The notes beneath the pieces are model-generated. The model made no database searches. It was not told where the DNA came from and was given only the letters and a program-made list of their open reading frames with translations. Position numbers and translations under genes: made by a program. A stretch of DNA of 64,000 bases from Enchytraeus crypticus (taxonomy: Eukaryota; Annelida; Clitellata; Enchytraeida; Enchytraeidae): the NCBI GenBank assembly GCA_905160935.1, contig CAJHZI010000431.1:37501-101500 (forward strand), read 5' to 3'. Positions within the stretch are counted from its first letter, which is position 1. Each line of letters starts with the position of its first letter. Shown piece by piece: positions 30,724-59,090 of the stretch.

Positions 30724-33700
30724 TTAAACAGTTTCCAAGTCCACAATAAGATCGTCTCTGTCAGCCGTTGTGGTCTTTGATTCTGACGGACGTGCTCCTC
30801 TGTCGAATAGCGTTGGTCTTTTGAAGCAGCGCCTCAGCGTCTCGAATGCGTCCACAACTTCGCCCCACATGACTCTGATCTCTCGAAGAACAACGGCTCG
30901 GTGGAAGAAGAACAGAAGGATTGGCGGTACTATGATGAATTGAATAAAGGTTAGCTTGGCGATGACGCTGAACAAGGCAAATGGAACATTCCATTCGCCT
31001 ATGATATAGAAAACATTATGCGCTACAACGTTTGGTAATTCGAAGATCAAAAATACTACTGCTATGAAGTGAAGAGATTTGGTAAGTGAATCCTGCTTTA
31101 CTTCATCCATTAGGTCAGGAATTTCAAAACTGATGCACACATTTCTACCGGAACCTTCCACACCGGATTTACTTTGGGTATTTAATCCTGGTTCGGTTGA
31201 AATTTCAACCGTTTGTCTTTCTGCACTCCACGTTGCCCTCAGTTCCGGGGCATCCGTGTTCGGTCTGGGCTCACCAAGCCTATCCCAAGATATCCAGTGA
31301 CCGTTTCCATCAGTGGTGGCATCCATAGAACTTCTTGACGTCAGTTCATCATTTTCAACTAATCTACTTCTGGAGAATTCTGTATCATAGTTTCCTTGAA
31401 CTCTGGCATTAAAATCCGCTGCAACATTACTCTGGGCAGAGCCTCCGCTAACAGACTGAATTTCCTCTGCTTTAGGCTCTTCTGATTCCTTTGACTTTAG
31501 TTGTTCTTTGGCCCATTTGCGCCTCTTCACTCTATAGTAGATAAGAATAATATTGCAAACCACAATAAACAGCAATGGTATGAACCAAAGCAACAGCCTA
31601 AAAGAGAACTGCCAAACTGATCTTAGCAAGGTAGAAGAGCAGAACATACTTCCGTCTGGAGAAATATAAGCCCACCACACCCAGAGATTGTTCAAACATA
31701 TTCCCACGAAGATCAGTACTGTAATTACCGTTGATGCATACTGATTGCAGAAGCGGAGCGCATGAGCGCTCAACCAATCAGAGCGCATCTCACGTCTGGC
31801 TGCTTGCCTGCTATTGGCTGGTTTGCTACCAAGTATCTCGCGATTGGCTAGCGCTATGACGATGCATCTTTCAAATGCTAGGACTCCTAAAATGAAACTG
31901 TAAGACTGGAGGATGGAATGCTGAATGAAATTCAAGAACTTACACAGAAAAGTTGAAAGTACCCAGCCTAAATGGACAGTTGAAAAGATATAGATAGATG
32001 TAATGAAAGTCAAGAAAATTAGGTTTACTGTAGCCAAAGCCTTGTAATACGTGAAAGTGTAGTGATAACTTTTGATTCTTCGTCTGCAGGTCATCTGAAA
32101 AAGCCATAAAATAATACAATTTCAAAACAGTACTGTTTACTAATATTAAAATTTAATTAACTAGTACTAACATTAAAAAGTTTAAAAACAGGCTTACCTA
32201 CGAATGAAATTCAGTGAACCATGTTTTTTTCGAATTTTTTGTAAGCATTTATTTGCTTAGGCCCCTATGTTTTAAAAAATTAAGTAGGCCTAATATTCAA
32301 TCAGTGTTGAAACAGCATAAGATCATTAGGGCCTAATGATGAAGTAGACTAATAGTAAGGGGGAAAGCTTCAATTGTAAGTCAATGTTATAATTTAAGCT
32401 TACATTTTCAAAATGCAAAATCGTAAAATCATTTAAATGTTCTGAAAGTCGTTTCTGTTATAAAGGGATAACCATAGCCTGATGGGTTATACATTTAAAG
32501 ATAGGATCAGAAGTTCACATCTGAAAGTATTTCAAAAGTTATAATTTGTTATCTGAGGACCACTTCTAGTAGATTAGACAAGAAACAGGATTGTTATCAA
32601 ATAAATTTGAATATGTGCCACTTCGACCAATAATGACTTGTGCGATTCGTCATTTATCAGTGAAACATGGCAGACCGCTATGTTGTAGCGAAGGTGAGAC
32701 ATGAGTAGGCCTAGGCATGTGCCCCAAGATGTTGTGCAAAATATTGACTGCATAAAATGTATGCCCCTCACAAAGTGCCATACCAAGATTGAATGTCTCC
32801 CCAAGAAAAGCAAAGCGGCGAAAAGGGTGGGGTGCGGGGAAGTGGAGTACTCTACCCCCTCTCTGAAGGAAAATTTTGTTAAATTACTGAAAAAAACCGG
32901 TTGATTTTCGGAGCATCTCATACTGACTATTTTGCTTTTTAAATTTTTCGTTAATAATAATAAAACTTTCAAGTTTTAACATTAATTTTAAATCAGACCA
33001 GTAAGTATAAAATAGTCATGATCATAATCGTAATTCATAACTCGTCAGACTGAACACAGAAAAATCAACAGTTCTCAACAATAAAAAATACAGCAACTCA
33101 AAGGCTTGAATGAGAGAGAACTGTGTTTATTTTCAGAAAACACTCAAATACGCATTAACACACAATAGGACGTCAAATAGGATATAAAAACCTATCTAGT
33201 TGACCACCTATCATGCATACCAAAAATACAAAGTAAAAATGCAATCCTACATCCAACAAGTATTCTCTATAATGCCTATAATATAATTTAGAAATTCGTA
33301 AAACTAACCAACCATTTGGAGTTGTCTAAAGTCATGGCAAACAAAAAATAACAGAAGAGCACGATCCTCAAGAGAAATAGAATTAAATGGAGAAGATTTG
33401 GGACAGGTCACATAGCAGCAGACTAGGCAACAGTAATAATAATAAAAACAATTAGAGTGCTACAGTCATCAATGACAACATCGAGCACTATTGAGACAAA
33501 ATCAAGCCGGCGAGCAAAAAAAGAAAGTCCAAAAACGGTGCAAATTCCAAAAATCCAGAAATTCAGTCCAAAGTAGACTATAGGCTACCTGACGGTCAGA
33601 CAAGGTTAATATCCCGTAGGACCTCTAGGCTCTATTTGTGATATCTTAAATTGAAATTTCTTGTTTGTGATGAAAAATCTTTCGCTTTCCCTTTGACCAT

Positions 33701-34897: not shown

Positions 34898-35218
34898 ATA
34901 AAGACCACGTTAAAAATGAAGATGTTCTACAAAGAATGTCAACTTGTCGTGACCTTTAGAACCGAATACGACGACAACAGATGAAATTTTTCGGACACAT
35001 TATGCGGAACAAAATAGTTGCAAATACCGCAGTGACAGGAATAATAGAAGGAAAAAGATGCAAGGGTCGGCAACGAATGACGTTTATTAAGAGTCTTAGC
35101 AAATGGATGCAGTTAACTGAAACAGAGATGATCAGAGCAACAATGAACAGAGACATATGGAAGAATATGACCATGACCGCCCAGGCTTGGAACAGGCGCG
35201 ACACTTAAAGAAGAAGAA
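34898..35218 (+). mobile_element. 3' fragment of the 47-kb LINE
   Basis: Positions 34898-35212 match 48923-49240 with only a few differences. They encode MKFFGHIMRNKIVANTAVTG, IIEGKRCKGRQRMTFIKSL and AQAWNR, and end in a GAAGAAGAAGAA tail. The near-identity suggests recent copying. It is a 5'-truncated copy. Confidence 0.9.
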
Positions 35219-40730: not shown

Positions 40731-43700
40731 TTACAGCTTCGTATTGCAGTACCAGTCTCTCGCCCTACCGACAGCTCGCATCCACTCGTTATAACTCTTT
40801 CTCGCTTCAGTCGTTCTCTCAGCTCCATCCGGCTTAAACTTCCGTTCCGTTGTTCGAATTTTCTTCAGTTCCATCTTATCTTTCCAGATACCTACAGCAA
40901 ACGAGCATATTGAAAAGATACGACTAATCCTGATACATAGATAATAATCATAATAACATAATAACAATAACAATAAACCGCTCAGATGGGAAACGATCGG
41001 ACGGTGTATCTCAAATTCCTTGGGCAGAAGGCAAGTGCATCAGCTGGGATGTCACTGTGACGGACACATTCTCAGCAAGCAATCTCAGCCTTTCATGCGC
41101 TGCTGCTGGCTCAGCTGCTGAAGCCGCTGCCAATAGGAAGACACTTAAATATGCCGAAGTCTCTAGCAGCTACATCTTCCGGCCCATTGCTTTTGAAACA
41201 TTGGGTCCCATCAACTCTGCCGCGTCTGACTTCATAAACGAATTAGGCAGGAGAACCAGTGCTATCACGGGCGACCAACGCGAAAAGGCCATTCTATGGC
41301 AGCGCCTATCTATCGCACTCCAGCGTTGTAATGCTGTCTGCATTCGTGGCACATTGGCGGTTGCGGCCTCCCAGAGCGTAGAGAAACTATTCTAAATATT
41401 TTTTCATCTTTTTTTTAATTAAATAGAGTCTTTCTTTTATCATATATTTTAGTCCAGGGCCTTATACAGCCCAGGGCAATATTTAAAAAAATAATAATAA
41501 GAAAATAAAAAACATAACAATAATAATAATAATAATAATAATAAAGGTTTAAAGTCCGTTTCCTCATACAAGGATGATGTCAGGGACAACATCAACTATT
41601 AATCAAACCAACTATCTTTTACTAGAAATCAACTATCTCTTACTATAAAAGGTATCTCCTAAATCAACGGTTAAAAACAAGACCGTGAGATTAGAAAATT
41701 TGACAAATCGAATACCTATTCTCAGAACAAAACGTAAAGTTTCAACGAGAAACTGCGCCGTGATCTGCATTAATTTACCACTAAGTGGTTATTTACTAAA
41801 GGTCTTCATAGAAACAATTACGATTTATAACTATCATAAGCTGCTATGCTCCGCCTTTTGTACGTAAGTGTTTCTAGTACGTAAGTATTTATGTATGTAT
41901 GTTTGTATTTATTTATTTTTTGTATGTATGTAGTTCGTCCAGTACAAAAAACCGTAAACACGAATCAACAGTTGACACAAGTAAAATAAACTCAAACAAC
42001 AGTAAAAACGAATCAACAGTTGACACAGATTAAATAAACCCAAACAACAGTAAACACGAATCAACAGTTTTTTATCGTTTAGTATCGTTTATTTGTTCAT
42101 CACAGCACAGATTGTACAAACAATAAGAACGTGCATGTAGTTAGATAAACAAACAACAACTCAAAAGAGGCGACCATAAAAATGCCTCTGCTCGGTAATA
42201 CCATAACTAGTAGCTATAGCAGAGTCTACTTGAGTCTGAAATGCAAAAATTTCTATTACATTACCAATTACAGTAAAACCGTTGGTAGTAATACAATTGA
42301 ATATTTTCAAATTAGGAAATGGGCAGACACTGGCAAGTGAAAACTCGAAATATACAGTAAACACGAATCAACAGTTGACACAGATTAACTATACGTACCA
42401 ACGGCTAGACCAGCAAGGAAGGCTGCGCCCAAGCTCGTCATGTCCATGTGTGTGGGCCTGTCTATAGACCTATCAGTCAGATCTGCTATCAACTGAACCA
42501 GAAAACTGTTGTTACATACACCCCCATCACATCTGTTGTGTAAATTCAACCAATCAATGTACATATCATTCAATCGATCGATCGTACGATTGAATTAGTT
42601 GAATGAACGAATTTCTTAAACGAATCAATGATCTAGTTTAAAAGATATTAATATACAACGTAAATAGGTCAGGTTTACCAGAGTTCAGATCTAGTTTCAA
42701 AGATAATCAAATTCAACGATAAAAAGATCTAGTTTACCAGAGTTTAGATCTAGCAAATAAAAGACAGCCTTAGACAACGTATATGATAGTTATTTGATAT
42801 TGTAGTGATTTTTACCGTGTGCATTTTATTGTAGGCCTATATAGCTTGTTTTACCGCAAATGTTGTAATGTATAGAGATGCCTTAGCATGATATACTCTA
42901 GTAAACATTAAACGGTAAATAGAATTGTATTGCCTAATGGTTTTTGACAGGGGGGTCTTGGTCTCGTCCAGGACTGTCTCGTAGAGCAGAGAGAACCGGT
43001 AGGCGAGGGACTCGAGTATCGCTCTCACAATGTGAGCACGTGAAGTTTCGAGTGTCGCACCAATCAGCAGACTCGTGGCTTTGTCGTCGTTCAGCGGCAT
43101 CTGCGGAAACAAGGCTTCTATTTATTTTTTATTTTAGTGAAAAGTATACCTGATATATTTCAATATTTTAACGCCTTAAATGTACGAGGATATAGTAAAG
43201 AGAGTTTGGAGGGAGGAGCTGGATGCTAAGCTAGAGAGAGGTAGACCACAACTGACGTGGGATGAGGTAATTAAGAAGGACATGAAAAATAGGGGACTGA
43301 CTGATGATATGGTGTGGGACAGAGAGGACTGGAGAAAGCCTATTCGTATCCCGGCCCTGGTTAAACTGGGATTTAAGGGACGATGATGATGATGATGATG
43401 ACGATGATGATGACGATGATGAACGCCTTAAAAGTAGGCCTAGCTATATAAGCCGGAATCGTTACGACAATTCAATTCAATTTCAATTTATTAAGAGCAC
43501 AAAAATGGTCATTCAACCCTGTAGAGTTCACATACACAACAAACAAACAAGCAAATGCAACACGATAAAACACAAAACTAAATGAGAACTATTGTGAACT
43601 TAAAATATAAGTTATATCAGTCATGAGATCTAGTATTTTATATCTACTCTACTAAAATAGCTATGCAATAAACTCATGCATGTTTTATACCTAAATCTTA

Positions 43701-46700
43701 CCATTATTGTTCCATTCCAATCAATTGCCTTCATTAGTTTCTGCTTGGTCGCCTAGAACGGAACTTGCATTCTGAAGTGCTCCAGACACAACAAGAATAT
43801 ACATGTATTATCGTCATCTTGATTGAATCCCAGTTTAACTACGGTCGGTATACGAATAGATCTTCTTTTCCATTCGTTTTATAAAAATGTTTAGCAATTT
43901 CTGGATCCTAAGCGAACAAAACGAATAGTCATTAATATGGATCCCACAAAAAATTTCTAAAAAAATGGAAAAAGATATAAATTTAAAAGATATATTTGGA
44001 CTTGCACTCTTTTGGATCAGCAATTAATACAGTACTTCCGGCAGAGTTTTGGGAAGACTGGCTCTTGTAACCAATGCCGTCATAGACATCCATCTTCAGA
44101 AAACGATTAGGACGTTAACATCGCCATGACCGTTGTCACGTTCAAAATTTAAACTTCCAATTGCAAACAATTTCAATTACTATCATAAATGATTAACTGC
44201 ATATGTACAGCAGAATTACCTGAAGTCCACTAAAAGCAGGCACAAAATAGGCTCCACTACTGCTCTCCACTGATCCAGCGAGAGCTTCCAACTCGTCAAC
44301 GTGCGTAAACAGACCTGCTCATAGGAGAATATACATCATGCAATGCAATATCATCATCATCGTCATCGTCATCATCATCATCATCATTATCATCATCATC
44401 TTCCCTTAAATCCCAGTTTAACCATGGTCGGGATACGAATAGACTTTCTCCAGTCATCCCTGTCCCACACCATATCTTCAGTCAATCCCATCAGCCAATC
44501 AGTCACATCATATCATCAGTCAATAATCCTATAATGCAATATGATACCTTAAAATACAACAGAAATGATGCAACATAATGCAATGAAGGATAGAAGAATA
44601 AAAGAATAATAGGCTAATTTATTCAGCAATTGACAAACAAATCGCAAAGAAAGCGATATAAGACATATGCCCAGTAATATTGTGTAATAAAATACAAACA
44701 ATACAAAACAACACACTGTACAACACAACACACTGTACAACACAACACACTATTGTGTTACTATTGCAATTGATCACGAACAACCCAACAGACTGAAAAT
44801 ATAAACATGAAATGTACTCTGTTTAGTACAATAAAGAATGGAAAAGTCTCAAATAGGGGATTGACTGATGATATGACGTAGAACAGAGAGGATTTGAGAC
44901 AGTCTATTCGTATCCCGACCCTAGTTAAACTGGGATTCAAGGGAAGATGATGATGATGATGATACTCTGTTTAGTAGAATAATGAACGCTCACTAGATGT
45001 TCTCGTTCATTAGCTTGGTCAATAGGAAATTAGTTAAGAAGGATTCGGTATCCAGTCAGGTCCGTCACAGATATAATAACTGCATGAGAAAACAAACAAT
45101 AAATTCTTACCACGTGGATATAATCAGTGAAAGCTGGTAAAGCTAAGGTTAACGTCAGTTTCCTCACTCGAAAGCGATGTAAGTGACGGGCGAGCCCAGG
45201 ATTTGAACCCCGCACCTACTGATCCGCGGTCGAATATCTTACCGACTTTGCCACTGGCTCCAGCCAGTACTTACATTTATTTAAATATTCTAAATTTAAT
45301 CAATTGAACTGGTTAATCTTTATAATAGGGGATTAACTGATGATATGGTATGGGACAGGGAGGACTGGAGAAAGTCTATTCGAATCCCGACCCTGTTTAA
45401 ACTGGGATTTAAGGGAAGATGATGATGATTATAATGATGATGAACTGACTAATCTTACCAATATTCTTAGACCACTCTAAACAAGTTCCTGTGTCAGAGG
45501 CGAATCCTTCTGCAACATACACACATTCCTCGCCTATCTTCCACCCAATCAGGGGATAGAGGCCTAAATCAATCAATTAATCACTAATCAGTTGAAAAAT
45601 TAATCAAAACAAAATCAATCAGTAAGTCAACTGCGCAGTCACTGGATCAAGAGCAAAAGTATACAAATCAATCACAGTCAACCCCCTCGACCGGTCACAC
45701 CACCACCACAACAATATAACAACAATACGATTAGAGTGCTACTGTTGTCCATGACAACATCGAACACTGTGGGACCAAATTACAACCGATGAGCAGAGTG
45801 AGGGGTCCAAAACGGTGCAAGCCAAAATCTGGGTGGTCAGTCCAAGGAAGGGTACTAGCGGAGGAAGGGTACTAGCGGATGGATACACACAATGGCACCC
45901 GTACTCTACCTACACTAACTTAAGAATAGCTGGTAACTTCAAAAAGAAATACCTCTTTTAACTAATACTGTTGTAACAGTTCCATTATAGCATATAGCCG
46001 AGAGCAGCAACTTATAATATTTAATAAAGTTACATAATTATATCAAATATCGAAATAAACAAATAAAGCTATATAGCATCAGGAAAGCATGACACCAACT
46101 CAATTATTTTTAAATGATAAGTATGCGTACGTCAGGATAGCCGAATGGACAGCACGCTTGCCTGAGAAGCAGAAGGCCATCGTTTCAAATTCCAACCGGA
46201 CAGTCTCTGATCCCTCGTGATCCAGAAACAAACGTTAAACTTAGCTTTACTGACGGATTGATTCATGATTGATTACCTGCTATGGATGCATGAGGCTTAC
46301 TGCCTGTATTACAGTCAATGAACGTCCCTGTGCCCATAGTACACTTCACGTCCCCAACATCAAAGCAACACTGACCAAACATGGCGCCCTGTTGATCAGC
46401 CACCTAACAACAACAACAAACATGGCACCCTGTTGATCAGCCACCTAACAACAACAACAAACATGGCACCCTGTTGATCAGCCACCTAACAACAACAACA
46501 AACATGGCACCCTGTTGATCAGCCACCTAACAACAACAACAAACATGGCGCCCTCTTGATCAGCCCCCTAACAACAAAACAAACATGGCACCCTGTTGAT
46601 CAGCCACCTAACAACAACAACCAACATGGCGCCCTGTTGATCAACTACCTAACAACAACAACAAATATGGCACCCTGTTGATCAGCCACCTAACAACAAC

Positions 46701-49700
46701 AACAAACATGGCGCCTTGTTAATCAGCCACCTAACAACAACAACAAACATGGTGCCCTGTTGATCAACCACATAACAACAACAACAAACATGGTGCCCTG
46801 TTGATCAACCACATAACAACAACAACAAATATAGCACCCTGTTGATCAGCCACCTAACAACAACAACAAACATGGCGCCTTGTTAATCAGCCACCTAACA
46901 ACAACAACAAATATGGCACCCTGTTGATCAGCCACCTAACAACAACAACAAACATGGCGCCTTGTTAATTAGCCACCTAACAACAACAACAAACATGGTG
47001 CCCTGTTGATCAACCACATAACAACAACAACAAACATGGCTATTCGTTGATCAGCTACCTACAAATTTAGAAACTACTGTTTATTTCAATTCGAGAATCT
47101 AATACCCTTTGACGGAATCTTAATTAAGCTGCAACAAATAGCTATATTTAAGTGCTACACACGAATATAGAAGTTTCAGCACAAGAAAAAATTTAAAACA
47201 ACAAAGCTACCAAAATACGCAAAAGTTCTATAATTAAGCTAAAAATTCAAATAGAAAAATTAAGAAAGTAATTACATATTTCTTACAACGGTATTTCGTT
47301 TAGTCGTCGTGCTAAACATATTATAAAATAATATAGCTTTAAATAAATCAGAACATTTAACAGTTAATGAAAGAACGACAAAAGATTAAAGATAGAGAAT
47401 GTAAGGGGTACAGAGTTTCGAACAATGCAATAAAGAAACTTTGCAAACATGAAAAGGAAGAGTGGTTAAACAAACGATGTGATGAGATTGAAAAGACGAA
47501 ATTTACAGACACAAGGAAAATGTACAAAGAGATAAATGAAATAACTAATCGGAAATCTAATTGCTCACATAGTAAATGCATCAAGGCTAACAATGAAGAT
47601 ATTCTCATGACAAAGAAAGATATACTTGATAGATGGTCAGAGTATATCGATGACCTTTTTAAAGATAATCGAATGGAGCTTCCAAAATAACTCAAGAAAT
47701 AGCAGGTCCTAAAAACTTAGAAGACGAAGTTAGATATGCCATTAGGAAATTAAAAAGAAATAAAGCAAGCGGACCAGATTAAATAACAACAGAAATGATA
47801 CAAGCCACGGAAGAATTTAGCATAAAGGAGATCACGTCAATAGCAAACGACATTTATGACATTGGCGAAATTCCTAAAGATCTATTGAGATCGCTATTTA
47901 TTGCATTACCGAAGAAACCTGGTGCGGTAGAATGTGAACTACACAAAACTATAAGTCTAATGAGTGTAGTCATTAAAGTCTACTTAAGAATTCTGCTAAT
48001 GAGAATGAGAAATAAAATTAGACCTGAAATAAATCCTGTGCAATATGGTTTTAAGGATGATTCTGGTACAAGGAATGCTATTTTCATTATAAGAATTCTG
48101 TGTGAAAGAGCCATAGAATTAAATAAGGATCTAAACCTTTGTTTTATTGATTACACCAAAGCTTTTGACAAAGTTAGACACAGCAAATTGATAGATCTTC
48201 TTCATGAATTGGACATAGATGGCAAAGACATTAGAATTGTTAGGAATTTATACTGGAATCAAGAAGCTGCAATGAGATATGAGAACGAGTATAGTAACTT
48301 TTGCAAAATTAAGAGAGGAGTAAGGCAAGGCTGTGTAATTTCACCAGATCTTTTTAACTTATATAGTGAAAATATAATAAGGAATATCAATGAAATAAAG
48401 GGATTAGTAATTGGAGGATACAATCTTAATAATATACGTTATTCTGATGACATAGTTCTTATTGCCGACTCGCGAGACAAACTTCAAGAAATGTTGTAAT
48501 ATATCATAGTGAGGCTAGTGGATTATCTATAAATAAGAAGAAAACAGAATGCATGACATTTAGCCAACTAAAACTAATGCATAACTAAAAATGCCACAGC
48601 CATGCTTAATCAATGTAAGAGGTTAAAATGTCAAACTTGTTTAAGTCGAATCAGTCATATATTTAGGGTCACTTATTCATCAAAATGGGAAATGTGACAA
48701 GGAAATAAACAGAAGAATAGCCATGGCTAAGGAGGCATATAACAGAATGTCAAAGATTTTTAGAAGCCATAAATTATCAATTGATACCAAAAAAAGACTT
48801 CTTCAATGCTATATTCAACCAATATTGTTATATGGAAGTGAAGTTTGGACAATCTCTTCTGTAATGGAATCGAAACTTGAGGCAACAGAGATGTGGTTCT
48901 ATAGAAGAATGCTACGTATATCTTATAAAGACCACGTTAAAAATGAAGATGTTCTACAAAGAATGTCAACTTGTCGTGACCTTTTGAACCGAATACGACG
49001 ACAACAGATGAAATTTTTCGGACACATTATGCGGAACAAAATAGTTGAAAATACCGTAGTGACAGGAATAATAGAAGGAAAAAGATGCAAGGGTCGACAA
49101 CGAATGACGCTTATTAAGAGTCTTAGCAAATGGATGCAGTTAACTGAAACAGAGATTATCAGAGCAACAATGAACAGAGACATATGGAGGAATATGACTA
49201 TGACCGCCCAGGCTTGGAACAGGCACGGCACTTAGAGAAGAATAGCTTTTAGGTTGAGAAAATACAATGCTACTATTTTACTTTAAAAATGTAGCACAAT
49301 TACACAGAGAACTATTAAAGGTCAAACAAAGTTTTGCAGTGCATTTGGCATTAAAAATATTCAAACAGATATTTAAATTACAGTACTCAGTTATGAGATT
49401 TGTGCAAATTACCAGTACAACAGAATATTTCTAAATATAAAACAAAGTATGAAATGAAACCAAGTTTTAAAGCTGAGATCAAGTTTATTAATGTAAACTT
49501 CATTGAGAGAGCATTGAATTTGAACTCTGCACCTATTGATACACAGTCGGACAATTTACCGACATTACTACTCAGCCAAATCAGCCTCACAGAGTGAAGA
49601 GCTCTTACAGAACAGCAAGTCTTCGGTTCCAAGCAATTTATACACAAAATGCTGATTACAGCAATAACACAGCAGCACAGTAAAAAGCTGGTAAATCTAA

Positions 49701-52700
49701 CGTCAGTTTCCTCGATTTAAAGCGATGTCGGTGACGGGCGAGCCCAGGGTTTGAACCCCGCACATACTGATCCGAGGTCGAGTATCTTACCGACTTCGCC
49801 ACTGGCTTCAGCCAGTAACACAGCATAGCTCCATAATATATCGAAATTGAACATATAAAGTAAGAGCGTAAGCGAACGCCATAAGCATAGGTACCAATTC
49901 ATCACCCAGCAAAAATCTAACTCCCCACAAAAAAGCAGAATACGTACAAGAGCCGTTATGGGAATGGCTGCCCCGAACAGTTCAGGACTGCACTCGCCGA
50001 ACCTCCCACTGTAGCAACACAGGTCATCAACACTACTTCGTAAATGAGTCAGACCTGATATCTCTCTCTAATAAATATCTGTCTATAATAACTATCTAAT
50101 ATCTATCTCTATCTCTAATATATCTCTCTCCTATCTTATCTCTCTCTCTCTTTCTTAGTGCATGGCCTACTGGCAGGTCCATGGTATTTAATGCCTCTAC
50201 TCATCTCTATCTTCCGTCTTTCTCTTCATGTCCACATATGAGTGGTTCTTTAAATCATCTATAACATTCCTTTTGATATACCATTATTCTTCTTATTACA
50301 AAAATAGTATAATAATATTATTACATTATAATTAATATAGTAATGTTCTTGATATAATTACACTTATTATTATATTAGTTAAACTGGGATTTAAAGGGGA
50401 AATGATGATGATGAATATTATTGATATTATTATATTAAAATATTATTATAGTAAATATTAATAATGAAAATAGCAGCAATGCCAATGAATATGTAATCGT
50501 TTCTGAGCTATTAAACAATCCTATTAATCAGAATATGCCTCCGGCGCACAGTGATTTTGTTTCGAAATTTAAATAATCACTCAATAAATTCACAATTAAT
50601 TATCAAAAAATAACTCATCCCAAACAATTTAAAAGCTTCTCGAATACCAATATTCAGAACCTAAGTAATTCAGTAATCAGAAGTCTAAGCCTATTATCTC
50701 AAGCAGAAGTCTAAGCCTATTATCTAAAGCAGAAGTCTAAGCCTATTATCTAAAGCAGAAGTCTAAGCCTATTATCTAAAGCAGAAGTCTAAGCCTAGTA
50801 CCTAAAGCAGAAGTCTAAGCCTTTTATCTAAAGCAGAAGTCTAAGCCTAGTTCCTAAAGTAGAAGTCTTAACCTAGTATCTAAAGCAGACGTCTAAGCCT
50901 ATTATCTAAAGCAGAGGTCTAAGCCTACTATCTAAAGCAAAAATCTAAGTCTATTATCTAAAATAGGAGTTTAATTTCATGGCAAACAGACGGCAATGAA
51001 ATATTGTTTAACAATCTGTAATATATAATAAAATCAAAATGCAAAAGCAGTAAGAGTTCCACCTGGTGTCCATGATGGGAGGTAGAATATGTAAGGGTAG
51101 ACCTACAGCCTTAGTTACCACGCTACTCCATTCCATCTGATCAATAAATCAATCAATTAGTTGATTTACTAGTTAATCAATTAAGTCATCCAATATGTCT
51201 TTCAAAGTTTCTTCAATATTTATTAAAATTCAATATATTTTTTCAAATCTTACATTAGATATCATGAAGGCCTATAGAGAAAGATTAATAAATAAAAGAA
51301 AGTAATCCGGCTACATCTTAATAGTAAAATCAGTAATCGTTCATTAGGTATTCAGATATAACATCTCACGGGATTTAAATTCAACTTGATCAACAGTAAC
51401 AGCACAATTGAGGTGTGGAAGCAATGTTAATGAAATGCATGCAGTTCTTGTGTTTATGTGGAAATACCCAGATCAAACAAAAGAAATTTTCTCTAGCCTC
51501 CTTGTATTTGATAGAAAACCAAAATAAAACGAACAGATATTATGCCGAACAAATGTTAAAATAGCTATCTGAAATCCTATAACAAATAGAAAGCTCAATA
51601 GAAGAAATTAACAAAAATAATAGAATTTAAGAGATCTTGACAAAATTTCTAGTCTGTTTATTTTCTTTTCTCATAGATATTTGATTCAGAATACATAACA
51701 TAATTAATTTTCTAGTATCATTTTGGTATATGAAATAACTTTGAAATGTCTTTGGTTGATGAAAACGAAATTTTAAGTAGCATATTAAAGGATTCAGACC
51801 TGAAAGGGATCATACAGTGCGGTAACGCTAGCACAGCTGAAATCAGTCGCATAGACTTTGTGGTTAGTCAACTTCCATAACAACCACGTGTCGATTGTAC
51901 CGAACCTAACTTGTTCCTCGTCGATGCGTCTCCTTAACTTCACATCAATCAATCAACTGATTAATGAATTTATGAATCTCTCTCTCTCTCTTAGTGCACT
52001 AGCTACTAGCAGATCATGGCATATAATGCCTCCGCTCTTCTCTATCTTCCGTTTTCCTCTTCATGTCCACATAAGAGTGGATCTTTAAATCATCTAATAT
52101 TCCTAATCTCGTTCTGCTTCTCTTTCTGTCCATTCTACCTTCTATACTTCCTTTACTAAACTATCTCTCCTTAGAATGCGTCCTGTCCAATTTTTCTTCC
52201 TATTTCTTATAACATTTATAAATTTTCTATCTGTACTAACTCTCTCCAGAACTTCCTCATTTGTAACCTTTTGAGTCCTCAATGCTTCTTCATTTGTAAC
52301 ATCAAGCAATCGTTAAATAGGAAACGAAAGAGCGCTCAAAAATCATAGTTTCACGATCAAAAACAATAAAGGGGTTTTTAAGTTCTGCTTTAAAATTTAA
52401 AACTCTTTCAACATTTCAACAATTGCTTTAAACAATCACAAAATTGGTTAGCTAAACTTAATTAATTAATTCTCTTTTTCATTCCTCTTTTATGATATAT
52501 GCGCTTAGCTTCAGCTCAATTATATGTAATTAAACTGGACTAAATTACAAACTTTACAACGTTCGAAACTTCGATTATTAACAAATATTGTCATACTTTT
52601 ACTATATAATCATAATTTAAAATATTAAATTTTCAATATATAATATTTCATATCTAACCTCTGCGTTGTTATCTATCTGATATTTTAGCCTCATAACAAC

Positions 52701-55700
52701 CTAAGCACATACAAAACTTCATATATATATGCCGATATACAAATACACATGTCCATAATTTTCAAATATACTCGTAAACACATTGCATATGAAAACAGAT
52801 TCACACAAAACTGAAAATAGAACAGAAAACACAGTTCGTCACATGACCATCAGTCTGAATACAACCGACTTTAGATTACATGTAAATCAAGAATTACACA
52901 AATATAGAATAATAATATAATTAATAAATAAATGATAGCAAAATTAATATTTTTGTACATTTAATTGCTTTTAAAGACCAATCACATCTGTTCACAATAC
53001 AGATAAAATGTGATGATTTCATTTGTATCACAGTGATAATTTGTGATGATGAGATGATTTGATATATATCACAAAGATGATATGAGCTGATTTGATGATT
53101 TATGAAGATGTGATTTCATTTCTATCACAATGATGATTTGATGATTTGTGATGATGAGATGATTTCACTTAATCATAGTATATTGTTGTCACACGTATAT
53201 TGTGTTTACCCAAAACACCATGTACTATTGCATAAACTATATATAAGTGTCTGATAGTTTAATTTTAGTCTAAATATATGGGATATTTCTATATATTTTT
53301 TTGTCTAAATATATGGGATATTTAATTATATTTCACTAATTAATTTAAAACATATAGTAAACACACATGAATCAATAAAAACACATAAAATCATGAGAAG
53401 AGATTACTTGTAACCGTCATGCACTTGCAATACTACGGAGATGTTATCATAACAGCCCTAGTGGCTAAAATGTCTAACTAAGACAATAAAAACAGGAACA
53501 AAGTTGAAGCAATTCTAAGAAGAATAGGAGACCTGGGCAGATTTGAACCTGAGGACTGCAGCAGCAAGAAATCGCTTCTTACCAGATATGTAATATAAAA
53601 ATTTGGCAGCATTGTTGAACACCTGCACATAGAAATTTGTTAACGTTTTCATTTCAAAGATCAATTCTACGTAATATTTAGTATGATAGCATAAAATAAT
53701 TTAATCCTTGAACCAGCCCTAGGATGATCACACGACATGACATGCCATTAATTTAATTAAATAAGACTCAAATTTCAACAGAAATATCCTACAAGATATC
53801 TCTATCATTCCTAAACGACTCCTGAACTCAATGAAAAAGATTTAAAATATAAAATAAAATACCCCTCTATTAAAATAAAGCTGGTAAAGCTAATGTTAAC
53901 GTCAGTTTTCTCACTCGAAAGCGATGTCAGTGACGGGTGAGCCCAGAATTTGAACCTCGCACATACTAATCCATGGTTGAATATCTTACCGACATTGCCA
54001 CTGGCTCTAGCCATTAATAAAACTTTGAACGTAAACAGATTAATAAATATGACTGTAGTAATCGAAAAACAAATTATTGAAAGAGAGCTCAAAGTTAGAA
54101 ATTGGAATTAATATTTGCATTAATTAATTAATTAATTACTCTATATAGGCCTATATATTTATAATTACTTAGAGCATTAGAAAGAATCAAACAAGGATTG
54201 AAATAAATTATTGTATTAATTAATAATAAGTTTAACTACCATTAAATTAATTAATTAATGCATACATTACTTAAGACTCACTAAAATGCTTGAAATAAGC
54301 TATGTGCATTGTACAGCTGAAGGCCAACCTTCATTTTATACGAATCGTTCCATCGCTTGACGAGATCTGCACATCTGAGATCTTGCCAGGTGATGAAATG
54401 GTGGAACGGTTTCCCAGTCTCTCTGCAAAATAGTTAATAATCATTAAAAAACAGTATCAAAACAGTATCAAAACACTATCAAAATATTAGTTGCTTAATG
54501 TTTTGCAGACTTCGCTAAAATTCTCGACTGCGGATCAGTACGTGTGGTGTTCAAATCCTGGGCTCACCCATCACTGACATCGCTTTCGAGTGAGGAAACT
54601 GACGTTAACCTTAGCTTTATCAGCTTTAAATTAAGCAATAAATCATAAAACATTCAATCAATGAATTAATAATTTTCTAAGTCAATGAGTTACTAAAACG
54701 ACATATTGTACAGTTTAAATAGAAATAAGAGAACTAAACTACAAATCTTAATGGCTATCAATAAACATGATGATTATGATTATATATCTCATAGTTATTG
54801 ACATGTGCTATTTACATGTAAAAATTTAAATATAGATTAGGGTTTATGTAACTTTAACATCCCTTTTAATTTGATTTCAGTATTTGCTGAATATTTTGTC
54901 TTAACTTTGCATTTTTAAAGTATTTTGTGCCATGTAATGTCTATAGTGATCATCAGAGGGTTGATAAACTCTTTTGGTTTACCTGATAAATAAATTATAA
55001 ATTAAGATGTGAAACAAAATTTTGCATATTAACATACATTTTCTTTAATTCTGCGCAATCTGAAATGGCATTGGTTTAAACCATTTCTTTCTTTTAAATC
55101 ATAGTTTAAACCAAACCTTTATTTACACCATTTCCTAAATCGTCTAAATCTACATTAATCTTTAAAATATTAATTCTAAATTTATTAATACCTTAAATAT
55201 CAATTTCACAATTAGTTTCAAAGATCTCAAAAATATTACTCGTGTAAACAGTAACTCACAACATAGTCAGCAGTCAATTGATGTCTAAGCAAAGGTAAAA
55301 CGAGTGCGACATAGGCATTTTTATCACCAGACTGGCTTTCGTTTAGGACCTTACTTCTTCTCAGAACATTCTTTTGCAGATTGGTCTGGTTGAATTGATC
55401 TGTAGTGATGTGTGCTGTTGGGACGTCCCTGACATTATCCCTGGATGAGGAAACGGACATTAAACCTTTATTATTATATTATTATTAGAAGAAGAAGTAG
55501 AATATCAACTAATTCAACACCTACTTGTCCCATAAAATGAATGTATTTCTCTGAGTAGTAATTCCCATACAGGCAATGTCTGCAGCCCGCAGTCGAGCAG
55601 CTGTAAGCAGACGAGAACAATCTATTTGTACAACTGAGAGAGAACTAAGTACTGTATGTTTATTGGAAGTACACATACAAGTACACATATATTGTCACAT

Positions 55701-58700
55701 ACAAGTACAAATACAAGTACATAGAGTAACATACAAGCCAGTACACATAGTAGCATACACAAGTACATATACAAGTACACATAGTAACATACAAGTACAC
55801 ATATATAGTCACATACAAGTACACATACTAGTACACATAGTAACATACAAGTACACATAAAAGCACAAGGTAATCAACGAGGGTATACATAACGTATCTA
55901 GTTGACAGCCAGCAATCACGCAAGAACAAGCAAACATACAAATGAAAATGAGCGAAATACTACAGAAAAAGCAGTAGTAACAAACCAGCGTGCAAATTGG
56001 AGAAACAATATAAATCAAACTGACAGAATAATAAATGAACGACTCAGACCAATTGAAGGAAAACAAAATTCAGGCAACCAAAGTAGAGACAGTAAAGCAA
56101 GATAATAGTCAACAATATAATATACTAATTATTGCAGTTGTACATGTACATGCATATCCGCAATGATTACTAAACAGTACTTAGCAGAGTAGGTCATGTT
56201 AAAATATGACAATATTATTACTGTTTCTAGAAGTTTCATTTTTAATGACTATATAATTAAATTTCACATCCTACTGGCGTATGAAGTAGCACTCTAGAGA
56301 ATCGGTTACGGATTCTCTCATCGATAATAATACGCATTCAATGAAATGATCAACCAAGTTGATATCTCTCTCTCTCTTTCTCTCTCTCAGTGTACTGCCT
56401 ACTGGCAGGTCCATGGAATAATATTACGCCTCCCCTCTTCTTTGTCTTCCGTTTTAACTTAATGTCAACATTTAAGTGGAACGTCAAATCATCTAGCAAC
56501 ACTCATTCTTGCAATTATATACCATTTTCTTGGGGGATTCTGCTTATGACGAAGTGGACCCCCTATGCCTTCCTCAGCGGCGACTAATATTTACAGGGCT
56601 AGGGCGTCATTCTCTGAGAAAACTATTATGTTTACCAAGATATCTATTTTCGTTAATACCTGCCAGATGTAATATCACTTTTTAAAACTGTAGGGAAATT
56701 TATTCCATTTCACGTGCAACCAGTCGCATGAATGTTCGAGATTTTACTCTCAGATCAGCGCGACCGAGAATCGAACCTACGAGAGTCCCATTCACCTCAG
56801 GCTCGGTCATCTAAAATTTCACGACATTACCTGACCGCTCTGACCACTATGCTATCGAGACATTCTGATGACAAAGACATTTTGATGATAAAAACCAGTA
56901 CAAATCTGCTACGACGTAGAGCGCTGGGTAGCTCATGAGTAATCCATTTTTGTTGTTCCTATTGATACGCACACGAGCACACGACATCCGCAAGTGTTAG
57001 CTACAGAGTTTCCAGTAGTTTCAATTTTATGTCGTTTTCATTAGTTCCTCCTAAATTCTCCTTGGTTTTTAGTAACTGTTACTTTCTTATGGCACATCAA
57101 TATTGTAGCCGGCACGGATTTAAGAATAACCTTCCAACACCCTGGGGATTTTTACATTCTAAATCATTCTAAGCTGTCATCACTGGGTCTTCCAGAGTGC
57201 ATGGTCACCCATCCTAGTATTAACAAGAATAGCTTTGTTAGCTCCAGACATCATGCTGTATCCGACTTAATCACTTACTAACAAACACTTTAAGTTTTAG
57301 ATTTCTCTAGGTATATAGCTGACAACATGAATCAGGGCTACCTAGAAACCACTTAATATTCTACATTAAAATTCGACAATATTTACAAGCCTAAAAACAA
57401 TTTAGCGACTCAGACATTGCCTATTATTATTAGCCTCTACTTATTGTATTCCTTTAATTTCCTCTACTGCTATTCTCTACTAACCACTTTCATATTGTTT
57501 ACATGTTCAATCGCTCACTATGCATATTTTTCCATCATGTATGATGTGCTGATATAAACAAATAAACAGTTTGAATAAATGAACTAAAACATCATATCTA
57601 CAGCAGAAGAAATGAATCAGCAAACCTGAGATGGCATCTTTGATGACATCCTGTGCTTGTTGCCACAGGACTTCTTCATCCATCTCCACCCATCCCTGCT
57701 GCGGGTATAGCATCTGAATCTATCCCGTTAACAACAACACAAATAAATGTGACAATTAACTCATTAATTTTGTCCTAATTACTTTGGGATATGCAAGATT
57801 GCTTTCTCAGGGAATGACACTCCTGCCCAGTAAATGTTAGTCGAAGCTTATGTAGGTATTGGGGGCCCACGTCGTCATAAGCAGAATTCCCCAAGAATAA
57901 TGGTATATCAAAAGGACGTTATAGATCCACTGGTATGTGGACATGAATCTGAGGAAAATGGAAGATAGAAATAAGTGGAGGCGCTATATACCATGGACCT
58001 GCCAGTAGGCAGTGCACTAAGAGATTGAGAAATACTTTGATGCTAAAAATATATTTCCATTGATGGTATAGAAAATCGACTAGAATGATCCATTAGCAGT
58101 TTGTTTCAATTAAATTATGTTCTAATGCAGTTACTACCAGAACAGTAAATGCAGGCAAATATCGGTGTAAAGTAATTGAAATATATATCTGATTATCTCG
58201 AAAATATAGATCTTTTATACTATGATAACACACGATGCCTCTGTTAGACCAACCGCTAACAGTACGTGTCGTAAGAGGTGACTTAGGAGCTTATCTTCAT
58301 TAGGCAGTGGCACTACTGCCACACTAACTCCGCCTACGTTACACGGGTGTTCTTCATCATTAGACAGTAGCTTTGTAAAGAGGTTGATTCACAAGAAGTG
58401 AGCATATGCCAGATTAAGATTAGAGCTACCAAAAATCAAATTTGGCTGTCAATGGTTAAGTGTAGAAAAAAAAAAAAAAATGCAAAACAAAATCAAGCCT
58501 CTTTTGCCTTCTCAAATCACAACACCAAACAAAAACCTAAATAAATAAAAAGTTTAAAAGATTAGAGGGGAAGCACTCACCAGTCTGCTTCCAGAGCCTA
58601 TTATAGTTGTGGCCTGGTCATAGACATGAGCCCTTATAGTGGTAGTGCCAACATCCAGTGCTAGCACATACTGTGAGCTCCTCCCCTCACCACTCCCATC

Positions 58701-58766
58701 ATGATGATCAGACCTGTCAGTCTGTCCATCACTCGATCTGTCCCGCCCCTCTCCTGTATCCGGCAT
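40731..58766 (-). CDS. GK5: GK5-type FGGY carbohydrate kinase, spliced
   Basis: A kinase of the FGGY family, closest to vertebrate GK5 along its length. Exons on the minus strand: 58766-58581, 57713-57626, 55600-55525, 54422-54329, 53622-53533, 51932-51800 (start approximate), 51136-51063, 50008-49948, 46403-46277, 45563-45459, 44314-44220, 43100-42934, 42532-42399 and 40891-40731. Landmarks in order are LALDVGTTTIRAHVYDQ (phosphate-binding start), YPQQGWVEMD, GITTQRNTF, HHFITWQD, FGTIDTWLLWKLT, VADQQGAMFG, TMGTGTF, LYPLIGWKIG, FVPAFSGLQ, MPLNDD, IRCDGGVCNNSF and LGAAFLAGLAVG. Located exons sum to 1591 nt. The mismatch in phase between 53533 and 51932, and the absence of the human LRLVWILQ segment, imply one small exon of about 40 nt between them that I could not find. 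The intron after the 43100-42934 exon uses a GC donor. All other located donors are GT. Confidence 0.95.
40981..41395 (+). mobile_element. Orphan domain of retroelement type, fragment
   Basis: An open frame reads DGVSQIPWAEGKCISWDVTV, TDTFSAS, AAANRKTLKYAEV, FRPIAFETLGPI and AILWQRLSIALQRCNAVCI to a stop at 41395. The WDVT-D, PIAFET-G and QR-SIA-QR-N pattern is one I associate with the downstream part of reverse-transcriptase elements in many invertebrates, but I cannot name the element class. It lies in the last GK5 intron on the opposite strand. It is treated as a fossil fragment; no upstream polymerase is present here. Confidence 0.5.
41455..41595 (-). repeat. (AAT)n and family E tail
   Basis: The plus strand reads (AATAAT)n at 41515-41545, then GTTTAAAGTCCGTTTCCTCA and GGATGATGTCAGGGACAA, the reverse of the 8797 and 29800 blocks. 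Confidence 0.75.
41940..42385 (+). repeat. Dispersed repeats of an ACACGAATCAACAGTTGACA unit
   Basis: The unit AAACACGAATCAACAGTTGACACA occurs, with small changes, at about 41955, 42003, 42053 and 42360, the last just after GK5 exon 42532-42399. The first three are spaced about 48 bp apart. Confidence 0.75.
43180..43425 (+). mobile_element. RTE-like LINE, 3' end with (GAT)n tail
   Basis: Reads [36 protein letters not shown] and [12 protein letters not shown], then AAACTGGGATTTAAGGGACG and a GATGATGATGATGACGATG tail. It lies in the GK5 intron just upstream (minus sense) of exon 43100-42934. Confidence 0.85.
43805..43935 (-). mobile_element. RTE-like tail and family F fragment
   Basis: GAATCCCAGTTTAACTACGG and ATACGAATAGATC are a minus-sense RTE tail, followed by GCAATTTCTGGATCCTAAGC (family F). 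GK5 intron. Confidence 0.65.
44341..44525 (-). mobile_element. RTE-like LINE tail with (ATC)n
   Basis: (ATC)n at 44350-44400, then TTCCCTTAAATCCCAGTTTA, ATACGAATAGACTTTCTCCA and CACACCATATCTTCAGTCAA. It starts about 25 bp from GK5 exon 44314-44220. Confidence 0.85.
44850..44965 (+). mobile_element. RTE-like LINE tail
   Basis: AATAGGGGATTGACTGATGA, CTATTCGTATCCCGACCCTA, AAACTGGGATTCAAGGGAAG and (ATG)n. About 115 bp, 5'-truncated. Confidence 0.85.
45125..45270 (-). mobile_element. tRNA-derived SINE, family A
   Basis: The plus strand reads AGCTGGTAAAGCTAAGGTTA, CGAAAGCGATGTAAGTGACG, AGGATTTGAACCCCGCACCT and TCTTACCGACTTTGCCACTG. The minus strand gives the tRNA-like order box A, then box B (GGTTCAAATCC). 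Confidence 0.9.
45325..45445 (+). mobile_element. RTE-like LINE tail
   Basis: ATAGGGGATTAACTGATGAT, GGAGGACTGGAGAAAGTCTA, AAACTGGGATTTAAGGGAAG and (ATGATG)n. It ends about 15 bp from the donor side of GK5 exon 45563-45459. Confidence 0.85.
45717..45870 (-). mobile_element. CR1/L2-like LINE 3' tail
   Basis: ACAATACGATTAGAGTGCTA, CATGACAACATCGAACACTG and GATGAGCAGAGTGAGGGGTC align with the 6.1-kb LINE end, with changes that suggest a separate subfamily. A GGAAGGGTACTAGCGGA duplication follows at 45855-45885. Confidence 0.75.
46128..46255 (+). mobile_element. tRNA-Ser/Leu-like SINE, family C
   Basis: GTCAGGATAGCCGAATGGAC with AGCACGCTTGCCTGAGAAGC resembles the front of a Ser/Leu-type tRNA, and ATCGTTTCAAATTCCAACCG resembles its T-arm. 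The tail CAAACGTTAAACTTAGCTTT resembles the tails of families A and E. It lies about 20 bp from GK5 exon 46403-46277. Confidence 0.7.
46381..47060 (-). repeat. 41-bp minisatellite made of a GK5 splice acceptor
   Basis: ATGG (or its variants) recurs at 46381, 46422, 46463, 46504, 46545, 46585, 46626, 46667, 46708, 46749, 46790, 46831, 46872, 46913, 46954, 46995 and 47036: 17 copies, period 41 with one step of 40. In minus sense each unit is a TTGTTGTTGTTAG acceptor followed by GTGGCTGATCAACAGGG and CGCCATGTTT, the first codons (VADQQGAMF) of GK5 exon 46403-46277. Only the copy at 46381-46408 leads into the true exon. Others carry changes such as CAGCC to CAACC, CACCT to CACAT (which removes the AG) and GCGCC to GTGCC. 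Confidence 0.97.
47341..49245 (+). mobile_element. Non-LTR retrotransposon (LINE), broken
   Basis: It lies in a GK5 intron, opposite to the gene. Frames at 47367-47690, 47795-48499 and 48723-49235 give a pre-RT region, then reverse transcriptase. RT blocks are CFIDYTKAFDKVRHSKLIDL (motif A), KRGVRQGCVISPDLFNLYSE (motif B) and IRYSDDIVLIAD (catalytic YSDD). The C-terminal part has PILLYGSEVWTISS, MKFFGHIMRN and EGKRCKGRQRM. The endonuclease is missing from the 5' side and at least two breaks separate the frames, so the copy is inactive. It differs from both the 6.1-kb and the RTE-like families; I do not assign a clade. A near-identical 3' fragment is at 34898-35218. Confidence 0.92.
49684..49825 (-). 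mobile_element. tRNA-derived SINE, family A
   Basis: AGCTGGTAAATCTAACGTCA, AGCGATGTCGGTGACGGGCG, AGGGTTTGAACCCCGCACAT and CTTACCGACTTCGCCACTGG. It lies about 125 bp from GK5 exon 50008-49948. Confidence 0.9.
50070..50300 (+). repeat. CT-rich tract and family D repeat
   Basis: TCTCTAATAAATATCTGTC-type pyrimidine-rich sequence precedes TAGTGCATGGCCTACTGGCA, GTCCATGGTATTTAATGCCT and TCTTTAAATCATCTATAACA. An RTE-like tail remnant (GTTAAACTGGGATTTAAAGG) follows at 50378. Confidence 0.7.
50685..50965 (+). repeat. 26-bp minisatellite in GK5 intron, about 10 copies
   Basis: The unit AAGCAGAAGTCTAAGCCTAT followed by TATCTA repeats about ten times with point changes, fading out near 50965. It does not copy a GK5 exon that I can recognise. 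Confidence 0.9.
51975..52290 (+). repeat. Family D repeat, long copy
   Basis: TTAGTGCACTAGCTACTAGC, CATGGCATATAATGCCTCCG, GTCCACATAAGAGTGGATCT and ACTCTCTCCAGAACTTCCTC. It extends further at the right than the 50155 copy and matches 2165-2425 over its left two thirds. It ends about 45 bp before GK5 exon 51932-51800. 52300-53530 shows no gene or recognisable exon. Confidence 0.65.
53877..54022 (-). mobile_element. tRNA-derived SINE, family A
   Basis: AGCTGGTAAAGCTAATGTTA, CGAAAGCGATGTCAGTGACG, AGAATTTGAACCTCGCACAT and CTTACCGACATTGCCACTGG. GK5 intron. Confidence 0.9.
54505..54640 (+). mobile_element. tRNA-derived SINE, family A
   Basis: Plus-sense copy: CTTCGCTAAAATTCTCGACT, GTGTGGTGTTCAAATCCTGG (box B), TCACTGACATCGCTTTCGAG and GACGTTAACCTTAGCTTTAT. 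GK5 intron. Confidence 0.9.
55418..55495 (+). repeat. Family E tail with (TTA)n
   Basis: GGGACGTCCCTGACATTATC, GAGGAAACGGACATTAAACC and a TTATTATATTATTATTAG tail. It lies about 30 bp from GK5 exon 55600-55525. Confidence 0.75.
55660..55865 (+). repeat. ACATACAAGTACACATAGTA minisatellite
   Basis: Degenerate copies of CATACAAGTACACATA with spacing of roughly 20-30 bp, starting about 60 bp beyond GK5 exon 55600-55525 (on its 5' side). The Val/Tyr-rich frames on both strands are array translations. Confidence 0.85.
56370..56592 (+). repeat. CT tract and family D repeat
   Basis: CTCAGTGTACTGCCTACTGG, TTATGACGAAGTGGACCCCC and a short CT tract in front. Matches the 2165 copy at its left end and the reversed 57860-58025 copy at its right end. 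Confidence 0.7.
56690..56870 (-). mobile_element. tRNA-derived SINE, family B
   Basis: AGATTTTACTCTCAGATCAG, CGACCGAGAATCGAACCTAC and CCGCTCTGACCACTATGCTA. The last block is the reverse of a box A-like TAGCATAGTGGTCAGAGCGG, better kept than in other copies. Confidence 0.85.
57860..58025 (-). repeat. Family D repeat, reversed
   Basis: GGGGGCCCACGTCGTCATAA, TATACCATGGACCTGCCAGT and AGGCAGTGCACTAAGAG. GK5 first intron region. A family F block (CTAACAGTACGTGTCGTAAG) follows at 58258. Confidence 0.7.
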
Positions 58767-59090
58767 TCTGATTGGCTATATGGAGAATACTATTTCACTG
58801 CCTCTTATAGACAAAATTAAATTGTTTTTTCCCAATGCTACTTTTAAGAGCCGAAGACCCGACTGCCAAATTAACTCAATGTTTGTCTGAGAAAAATTAT
58901 CGTCTTCTAGGATCTGTTGCTAAAGGAAGCAGTCTTTTGTCAAAGCTCTATAAGTAATTTTCTACCTAGGAATGAATTGAATTTATGAATGAATCTTCAC
59001 GATTAGTCTATCAAGATATCCAGACAGATTGATGCTGTGAATCAATGTCGTAAAATATTTATAAATCATATATTCCCCGTGTTGTGCTCG
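58767..59090. other. GK5 upstream region
   Basis: It directly precedes the GK5 start codon on the minus strand. I see no TATA box or other promoter element that I can defend. Confidence 0.4.

Follow-up and report, generated by a model that had tools for sequence, protein, structure and literature searches.

The element described here was found in 64,000 nucleotides of the genome of the annelid Enchytraeus crypticus (assembly GCA_905160935.1, contig CAJHZI010000431.1, positions 37,501 to 101,500), a stretch that we call the window and from whose first letter all positions are counted. In a glycerol-kinase-like gene on the minus strand, the border between intron 8 and exon 9, with its splice acceptor, lies inside the unit of a 41-bp minisatellite; the acceptor register and the start of the exon recur in all 17 copies, and 14 of these, the true one included, offer an AG. 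We lean towards seeing them as a tolerated and mildly costly series of decoy acceptors, thrown up by ordinary minisatellite turnover, rather than as an evolved switch. The computed part of this reading is made up of the anatomy of the array, the premature stops that follow from all 16 alternative acceptors, and the neutral-looking variation among the copies.

Anatomy of the array and its host gene

Tandem Repeats Finder (TRF) reports a minus-strand array at 46376-47061 with a period of 41, 16.8 copies and 90% matches (score 1099), a minisatellite as usually defined (a unit of some 10-100 bp that recurs many times, head to tail). When the strand is cut at each acceptor, 17 registers result, from k=0 (the true acceptor, first exon base 46403) outwards to k=16 (47058), with a spacing of 41 nt throughout and a single exception, a 40-nt step from k=4 to k=5. 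The consensus unit, GTTGTTGTTGTTAG/GTGGCTGATCAACAGGGCGCCATGTTT (the slash marks the splice position here and below), joins 14 nt of intron end to nine codons, VADQQGAMF, which include the conserved D-Q-Q; each copy in the array thus has the first 27 nt of exon 9. Continuation into the exon (FGQCCFDVGDVKCTMGTGTF..., with a GTAATC donor after 46277) is confined to k=0. AG stands at the acceptor position in 13 of the 16 upstream copies and AT in the other three, k=9 (46771), k=10 (46812) and k=15 (47017). At the outer end of the array, k=16 is set apart from each of the other copies by differences at 14-17 of its 41 positions and by an intron end of its own, TTTCTAAATTTGTAG.

The original prediction had described the repeat as an amplified acceptor joined to the first nine codons of the D-Q-Q exon, with only the last copy running on into the real exon. 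Both points are borne out, the first by TRF, the unit alignment and the local equivalence of several copies, the second by k=0 being the only copy that continues. Its count of 17 competing 3' splice sites is right for the registers and too high for the AG acceptors. The junction that it drew between 49948 and 46403 is sound: exon 8 ends in phase 0 (ITAL) and exon 9 starts VADQQ, giving a proper ITAL/VADQQ junction.

Fourteen exons of the host gene were located, their limits being set by eye with the help of open frames, GT-AG signals and phase. A short exon that the frame of exon 6 requires between exons 5 and 6 was not located, and the end of exon 5 is less certain than the rest; exons 1-5, and separately exons 6-13, read open when joined, and the gene is otherwise intact in its located parts. 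A 487-amino-acid protein model built from 13 exons (exon 14 being left out) matches FGGY_N (PF00370, E=5.9e-43) and FGGY_C (PF02782, E=7.6e-28), its best match among solved structures is the glycerol kinase 2dpn (E=1.9e-90), and in alignment the D-Q-Q of exon 9 is in register with the solved glycerol kinases 2dpn and 3g25. With both FGGY domains and the D-Q-Q, the protein belongs to the glycerol kinase group of the FGGY carbohydrate kinases. The gene is a candidate GK5, and the Asp of the motif is presumably the catalytic base, which in E. coli GlpK is Asp245.

Use of the upstream acceptors

Exons 6-8 were joined to exon 9 begun at each register in turn, in a joined model that ends at exon 13. 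With k=0 no stop is met through exon 13; each of the 16 upstream choices brings a premature stop, 9-96 nt past the junction and always within the extended exon 9. This includes the choices in which the added length keeps the frame, k=3, 5, 8, 11 and 14 (+123, 204, 327, 450 and 573 nt), where the stops come after 87, 45, 9, 87 and 9 nt; the first of these, three units upstream, had been put forward as an in-frame product, an expectation overturned by its stop at nt 87. Since all 16 choices stop, the array yields no longer protein isoforms, and it falls outside the alternative tandem acceptors whose isoforms keep the frame open. In the least extended product, from k=1, the stop lies 72 nt ahead of the end of exon 9, and by the usual 50-nt rule for nonsense-mediated decay all upstream products should therefore be targets of that pathway.

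What the copies offer the spliceosome is much the same from one to the next. A YTNAY stands 32-33 nt ahead of the next register in all 16 steps, within the copied Ala-Asp codons; it is followed by a U/G tract and then by AG in 13 of the 16 upstream copies and in the true one. To judge from this layout, a branch-point-like A for each copy, the true one included, would lie in the exon-derived part of the preceding copy. On the upstream side, copies k=1, 2 and 3 show no difference from the true site over 105, 64 and 23 nt, and on the downstream side none over 17 nt; they are identical to one another over 41 nt, with one change from the true copy; local sequence can hardly separate them from the true site, and it is distance, the remainder of the exon and the donor that could. 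Scored with a position matrix from the 11 other acceptors of the gene, the array ranges from -4.1 to -0.6 and the true acceptor has -0.84, beside left-out scores of -6.0 to 6.4 for the 11, the matrix being too weak to rank the copies or to predict usage. By the same weak matrix, 26 of the 149 AGs in intron 8, among them AGs in the exon part of the units, outscore every array acceptor. Folding of 46350-47075 (minus strand) gave -225.5 kcal/mol (z -3.82; each of 20 shuffles folded less stably), a value that is uninformative, since the pieces of the repeat can pair among themselves and the repeat is lost on shuffling.

On the decoy reading that we favour, the spliceosome would mostly pick the last copy, because only this copy has the full exon and a nearby donor behind it; the analogy is with earlier reports that exon length past the proximal site influences site choice (PubMed Central article PMC5389562). 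Use of an upstream AG would give a transcript with an early stop, to be removed by nonsense-mediated decay. By analogy again, the other copies may slow splicing or leak into decay, concurrent occupancy of two 3' sites on one pre-mRNA being inhibitory to splicing (PMC5389562). The use of the last copy, the decay of the others and the cost to the gene are thus the part of this reading that we infer.

Another fate proposed for the upstream products, which we hold to be quite improbable, is that blocks running from a GT to a later AG are spliced out in a nested or recursive second step, restoring the exact normal message. AG/GT is present in 12 of the 16 upstream copies as well as in the true copy (k=4 has AG/GG, and k=9, 10 and 15 have AT/GT), and in the pre-mRNA the donor-like TAG/GTGGCT scores 4.67, within the left-out range of 4.39-8.65 of the gene's own donors, 11 of which make up the matrix (the donor of exon 5 and the GC donor of exon 12 were left out). 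Once a common copy has been spliced, however, the regenerated donor, CTT/GTGGCT, scores 3.04, below the range of the gene and a value reached by 17.6% of the GTs on the strand; the donor regenerated after k=16 has 3.6, and that after k=6, CTT/GTAGTT, 4.93. The interval of 41 nt is, moreover, short for an animal intron. On the side of re-splicing, duplication of AGGT is a classic model of intron gain, and in two fission yeast genes introns lie across several 24-bp duplicates (PMC4974935).

The repeated UGUUGUUGUUGUU tracts might instead form an RNA-protein platform, binding a CELF/Bruno-like regulator that controls exon 9. CELF proteins prefer UGU-rich sequence, and GTTGTTGTTGTTA is intact in 15 of the 17 copies, the exceptions being k=4 and k=16; slippage of a U/G-rich intron end would, however, account for the tract just as well, and we regard such a platform as very unlikely.

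Turnover, origin and parallels

Among copies k=0-15, with the intron part of k=4 (which has an indel) and the divergent edge copy k=16 left out, 13 distinct changes were counted, nine of them C>T or G>A. One of the 13 lies in the two AG positions, which would receive one or more with P = 0.48. The copies with AT, k=9, 10 and 15, are identical over all 41 positions, which points to a single mutation spread by turnover. The loss of AG noted in the original prediction is therefore real in three of the 16 upstream copies, these being three copies of one variant, and its ascription to selection against misuse finds no support in a single event at that P. The distinct changes in the exon part comprise 4 silent and 8 non-silent ones, beside a ratio of 16:65 under random change (Fisher P = 0.28), these selection tests having few events and little power. 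Damage in the upstream copies includes TAA (k=8, 12 and 14), Ala>Val (k=6, 9, 10 and 15) and Asp>Asn (k=14), and the CpG of GGCGCC is gone in 11 of the 17 copies. The variation as a whole looks like neutral decay.

The copies fall into identical sets (k=9/10/15, 8/12, 7/13 and 1/2/3/5), a sign of block-wise turnover, and the identity of k=1-3 suggests a recent change near the exon. That a shorter or single-copy locus was inflated by misassembly seems to us most improbable, as simple misassembly would not invent the mosaic of variant types (k=7/13, 8/12 and 9/10/15) or the 40-nt step. Copy k=16, at the outer edge, is likely what remains of the original acceptor. In the simplest history, a short match, TTTG (AAATTTGTAG... 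and ...CATGTTTGGTC), may have been the site at which a founding duplication crossed the intron 8/exon 9 border, followed by slippage of the TTG tract and then by growth; the anatomy suggests that slippage or unequal exchange enlarged this border-spanning duplication to 17 copies.

It is possible, though we doubt it, that copy number acts as a modulator: more copies would bind more U2AF/U2 and give more transcripts that are dead ends or prone to decay, and allele length, under selection, would set the amount of kinase. The acceptors are locally equivalent, every upstream choice is non-productive, the identity of k=1-3 would fit a recent change at the exon end, and two 3' sites can be occupied at once, with inhibitory effect (PMC5389562). 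The loss of AG and the substitutions, however, look neutral. We think it unlikely that modulation is combined with re-splicing, such that an array of 14 AG acceptors meters gene output by copy number and AG/GT copies are possibly re-spliced to the normal message; were this true, array length would set the level of kinase, and mis-splicing would be largely self-correcting.

The window holds 37 tandem-repeat loci of period at least 10 (4832 bp, some of it of low complexity). With random placement of one founding unit per locus, P = 0.42 that at least one spans one of the 26 junctions of the gene, a value that is an upper guide, as it ignores selection and counts two-copy loci alongside large arrays. 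In so repeat-rich a window a junction-spanning repeat is not very improbable. Three considerations weigh against a merely tolerated series of decoys. By the weak matrix, the scores of the array lie inside the spread of the gene's other acceptors, so that local strength does not choose among the copies; a selected role could stay unmarked in a single genome; and a survivor of 17 copies is less expected than the value of 0.42 implies, because selection should remove arrays and most loci have few copies.

For the gene, a tolerated series of decoys has the property that gain or loss of copies in register would always leave an intact acceptor beside the exon, and a minisatellite could therefore grow over a splice junction with the gene unbroken. 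The damaged copies (AT acceptor, TAA, Asp>Asn) would be one gene conversion away from the true copy. The array is also a natural series of 14 AG acceptors in which the main variable is how far each lies from the full exon and its donor; with it, the effect of local strength could be told apart from those of position and exon length, and the load of decoys that a gene can bear could be gauged. Competition between 3' splice sites has so far been studied with engineered two-site duplications (e.g. PMC5389562).

Among the open-licence PubMed Central papers in the matches listed, none was found that deals with a minisatellite whose units carry splice acceptors. The nearest known case is that of IFI6 (6-16), in which several splice donor sites lie in a minisatellite (Turri, Cuin and Porter 1995, cited in PMC4526556 and PMC2915984); two downstream repeat units act as donors, giving three mRNA species (PMC4526556). 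There, as here, the units of a minisatellite contain a splice site of the host gene, but in IFI6 it is donors that are repeated, whereas here the acceptor recurs and every extended product would run into a stop. Nearest in anatomy is a potato RNA-dependent RNA polymerase gene, which acquired an intron when a tandem duplication ran across an intron-exon boundary (PMC4974935); neither of the two is an acceptor array. The potato duplicate, like our unit, joins the 3' portion of an intron (putative branch site, pyrimidine tract and AG) to the 5' portion of the exon that follows. It arose by one duplication, in which a cryptic GTAAG donor made the new intron, with 106 RNA-seq reads in its support (PMC4974935), whereas the present array has 17 copies, is without a strong donor and is known from genomic sequence alone.

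In ATP2A1 and in the fission yeast genes SPOG_01682 and SOCG_00815 an AGGT-containing segment is repeated, as it is here, with multiple copies of 24 bp in the yeasts. Those segments are exonic, and blocks of them are removed as introns (PMC4974935), whereas about one third of the present unit is intron end, and, were the last copy chosen, the array would fall outside the mature message. A further likeness is with the internal tandem repeats of human segmental-duplication genes (average unit 30 bp, 4 repeats), in that minisatellites alter gene structure, sometimes at an exon-intron boundary (PMC2812944); an acceptor array, however, is not described in the excerpts of that paper, whose text lacks the word 'acceptor'. 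In the engineered duplications of beta-globin 3' splice sites, substrates cited to Reed and Maniatis 1986 (PMC5389562), an upstream 3' site with 14, 55 or 205 nt of exon is set against a full downstream site, much as 27 nt are here, but with two copies in vitro rather than 14 AG copies in a natural gene. PMC7536079 was considered as a parallel for a repeated acceptor and rejected, its excerpts placing the repeats in exon 2 and the alternative acceptor in exon 5. A search for GTTGTTAGGTGGCTGATCAAC in viral contigs gave 0 matches, a result uninformative on animals.

Coordinates and other features of the window

Table 1. Exons of the glycerol-kinase-like gene, the minisatellite with its distinctive copies, and the element in intron 8
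Feature	Position	Strand	Basis or remark
Exon 1	58766-58581	-	
Exon 2	57719-57626	-	
Exon 3	55600-55525	-	
Exon 4	54422-54329	-	
Exon 5	53622-53533	-	
Exon 6	51932-51800	-	
Exon 7	51136-51063	-	
Exon 8	50035-49948	-	donor CTT/GTACGT faces the array across intron 8
Reverse-transcriptase-bearing element, intron 8	47361..49232	+	RVT_1, E=1.4e-26 for 47783-48496
Outermost copy k=16, TTTCTAAATTTGTAG/GTAGCTGATCAACGAATAGCCATG, probably left over from the original acceptor	47032..47073	-	unit alignment
Copy k=15, third AT copy	46991..47031	-	unit alignment
Copies k=9 and k=10, AT instead of AG	46745..46826	-	unit alignment
Copies k=1-3, acceptors most easily mistaken for the true one (first exon-like bases 46444, 46485, 46526)	46418..46540	-	unit alignment
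41-bp minisatellite	46376..47061	-	TRF and unit alignment
Exon 9, 127 nt	46403-46277	-	VADQQGAMFGQCCFDVGDVKCTMGTGTFIDCNTGSKPHASIA(G); starts in phase 0 and ends in phase 1; first 27 nt are copy k=0
Exon 10 (GLYPLIGWKIG...)	45563-45459	-	phase fits exon 9
Exon 11	44314-44220	-	
Exon 12	43100-42934	-	
Exon 13	42532-42399	-	
Exon 14	from 40891	-	reading frame to 40734

Exon 12 of the host gene apparently uses a GC donor (42934, TAG/GCAATA); the AG acceptor at 42532 is normal, and phase and protein fit. By eye, TTGATTGATT-type repeats stand right before the acceptor at three intron ends, 51136, 45563 and 51932. The reverse-transcriptase-bearing element consists of several open pieces on the strand opposite to the gene; it lies outside the array and makes intron 8 longer. 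The frames on either side of RVT_1, 47361-47687 and 48645-49232, have no Pfam match, and a C-terminal piece (NRIRRQQMKFFGHIMRNKIV...) closely resembling this element lies at 34960-35205 (+).

Further large tandem arrays lie at 2502-2917 (units of 24-30 bp), 19730-19915 (17 bp) and 50678-50962 (26 bp), the last of them between exons 7 and 8 of the glycerol-kinase-like gene. A segment at 46138-46200 (+) resembles, to the eye, the head of a tRNA-derived short interspersed nuclear element and is called by neither ARAGORN nor Rfam; ARAGORN finds no tRNA in the window, and Rfam at gathering score gives no match in 42000-59000. Elsewhere, an open frame at 22630-23838 (+) has a long charged stretch and, beyond it and close to the end, a match to the lumenal domain of vitamin K-dependent gamma-carboxylase (E=3.6e-16), and a 465-amino-acid frame at 30727-32121 (-) matches the rhodopsin-type seven-transmembrane receptors (E=6.3e-10).

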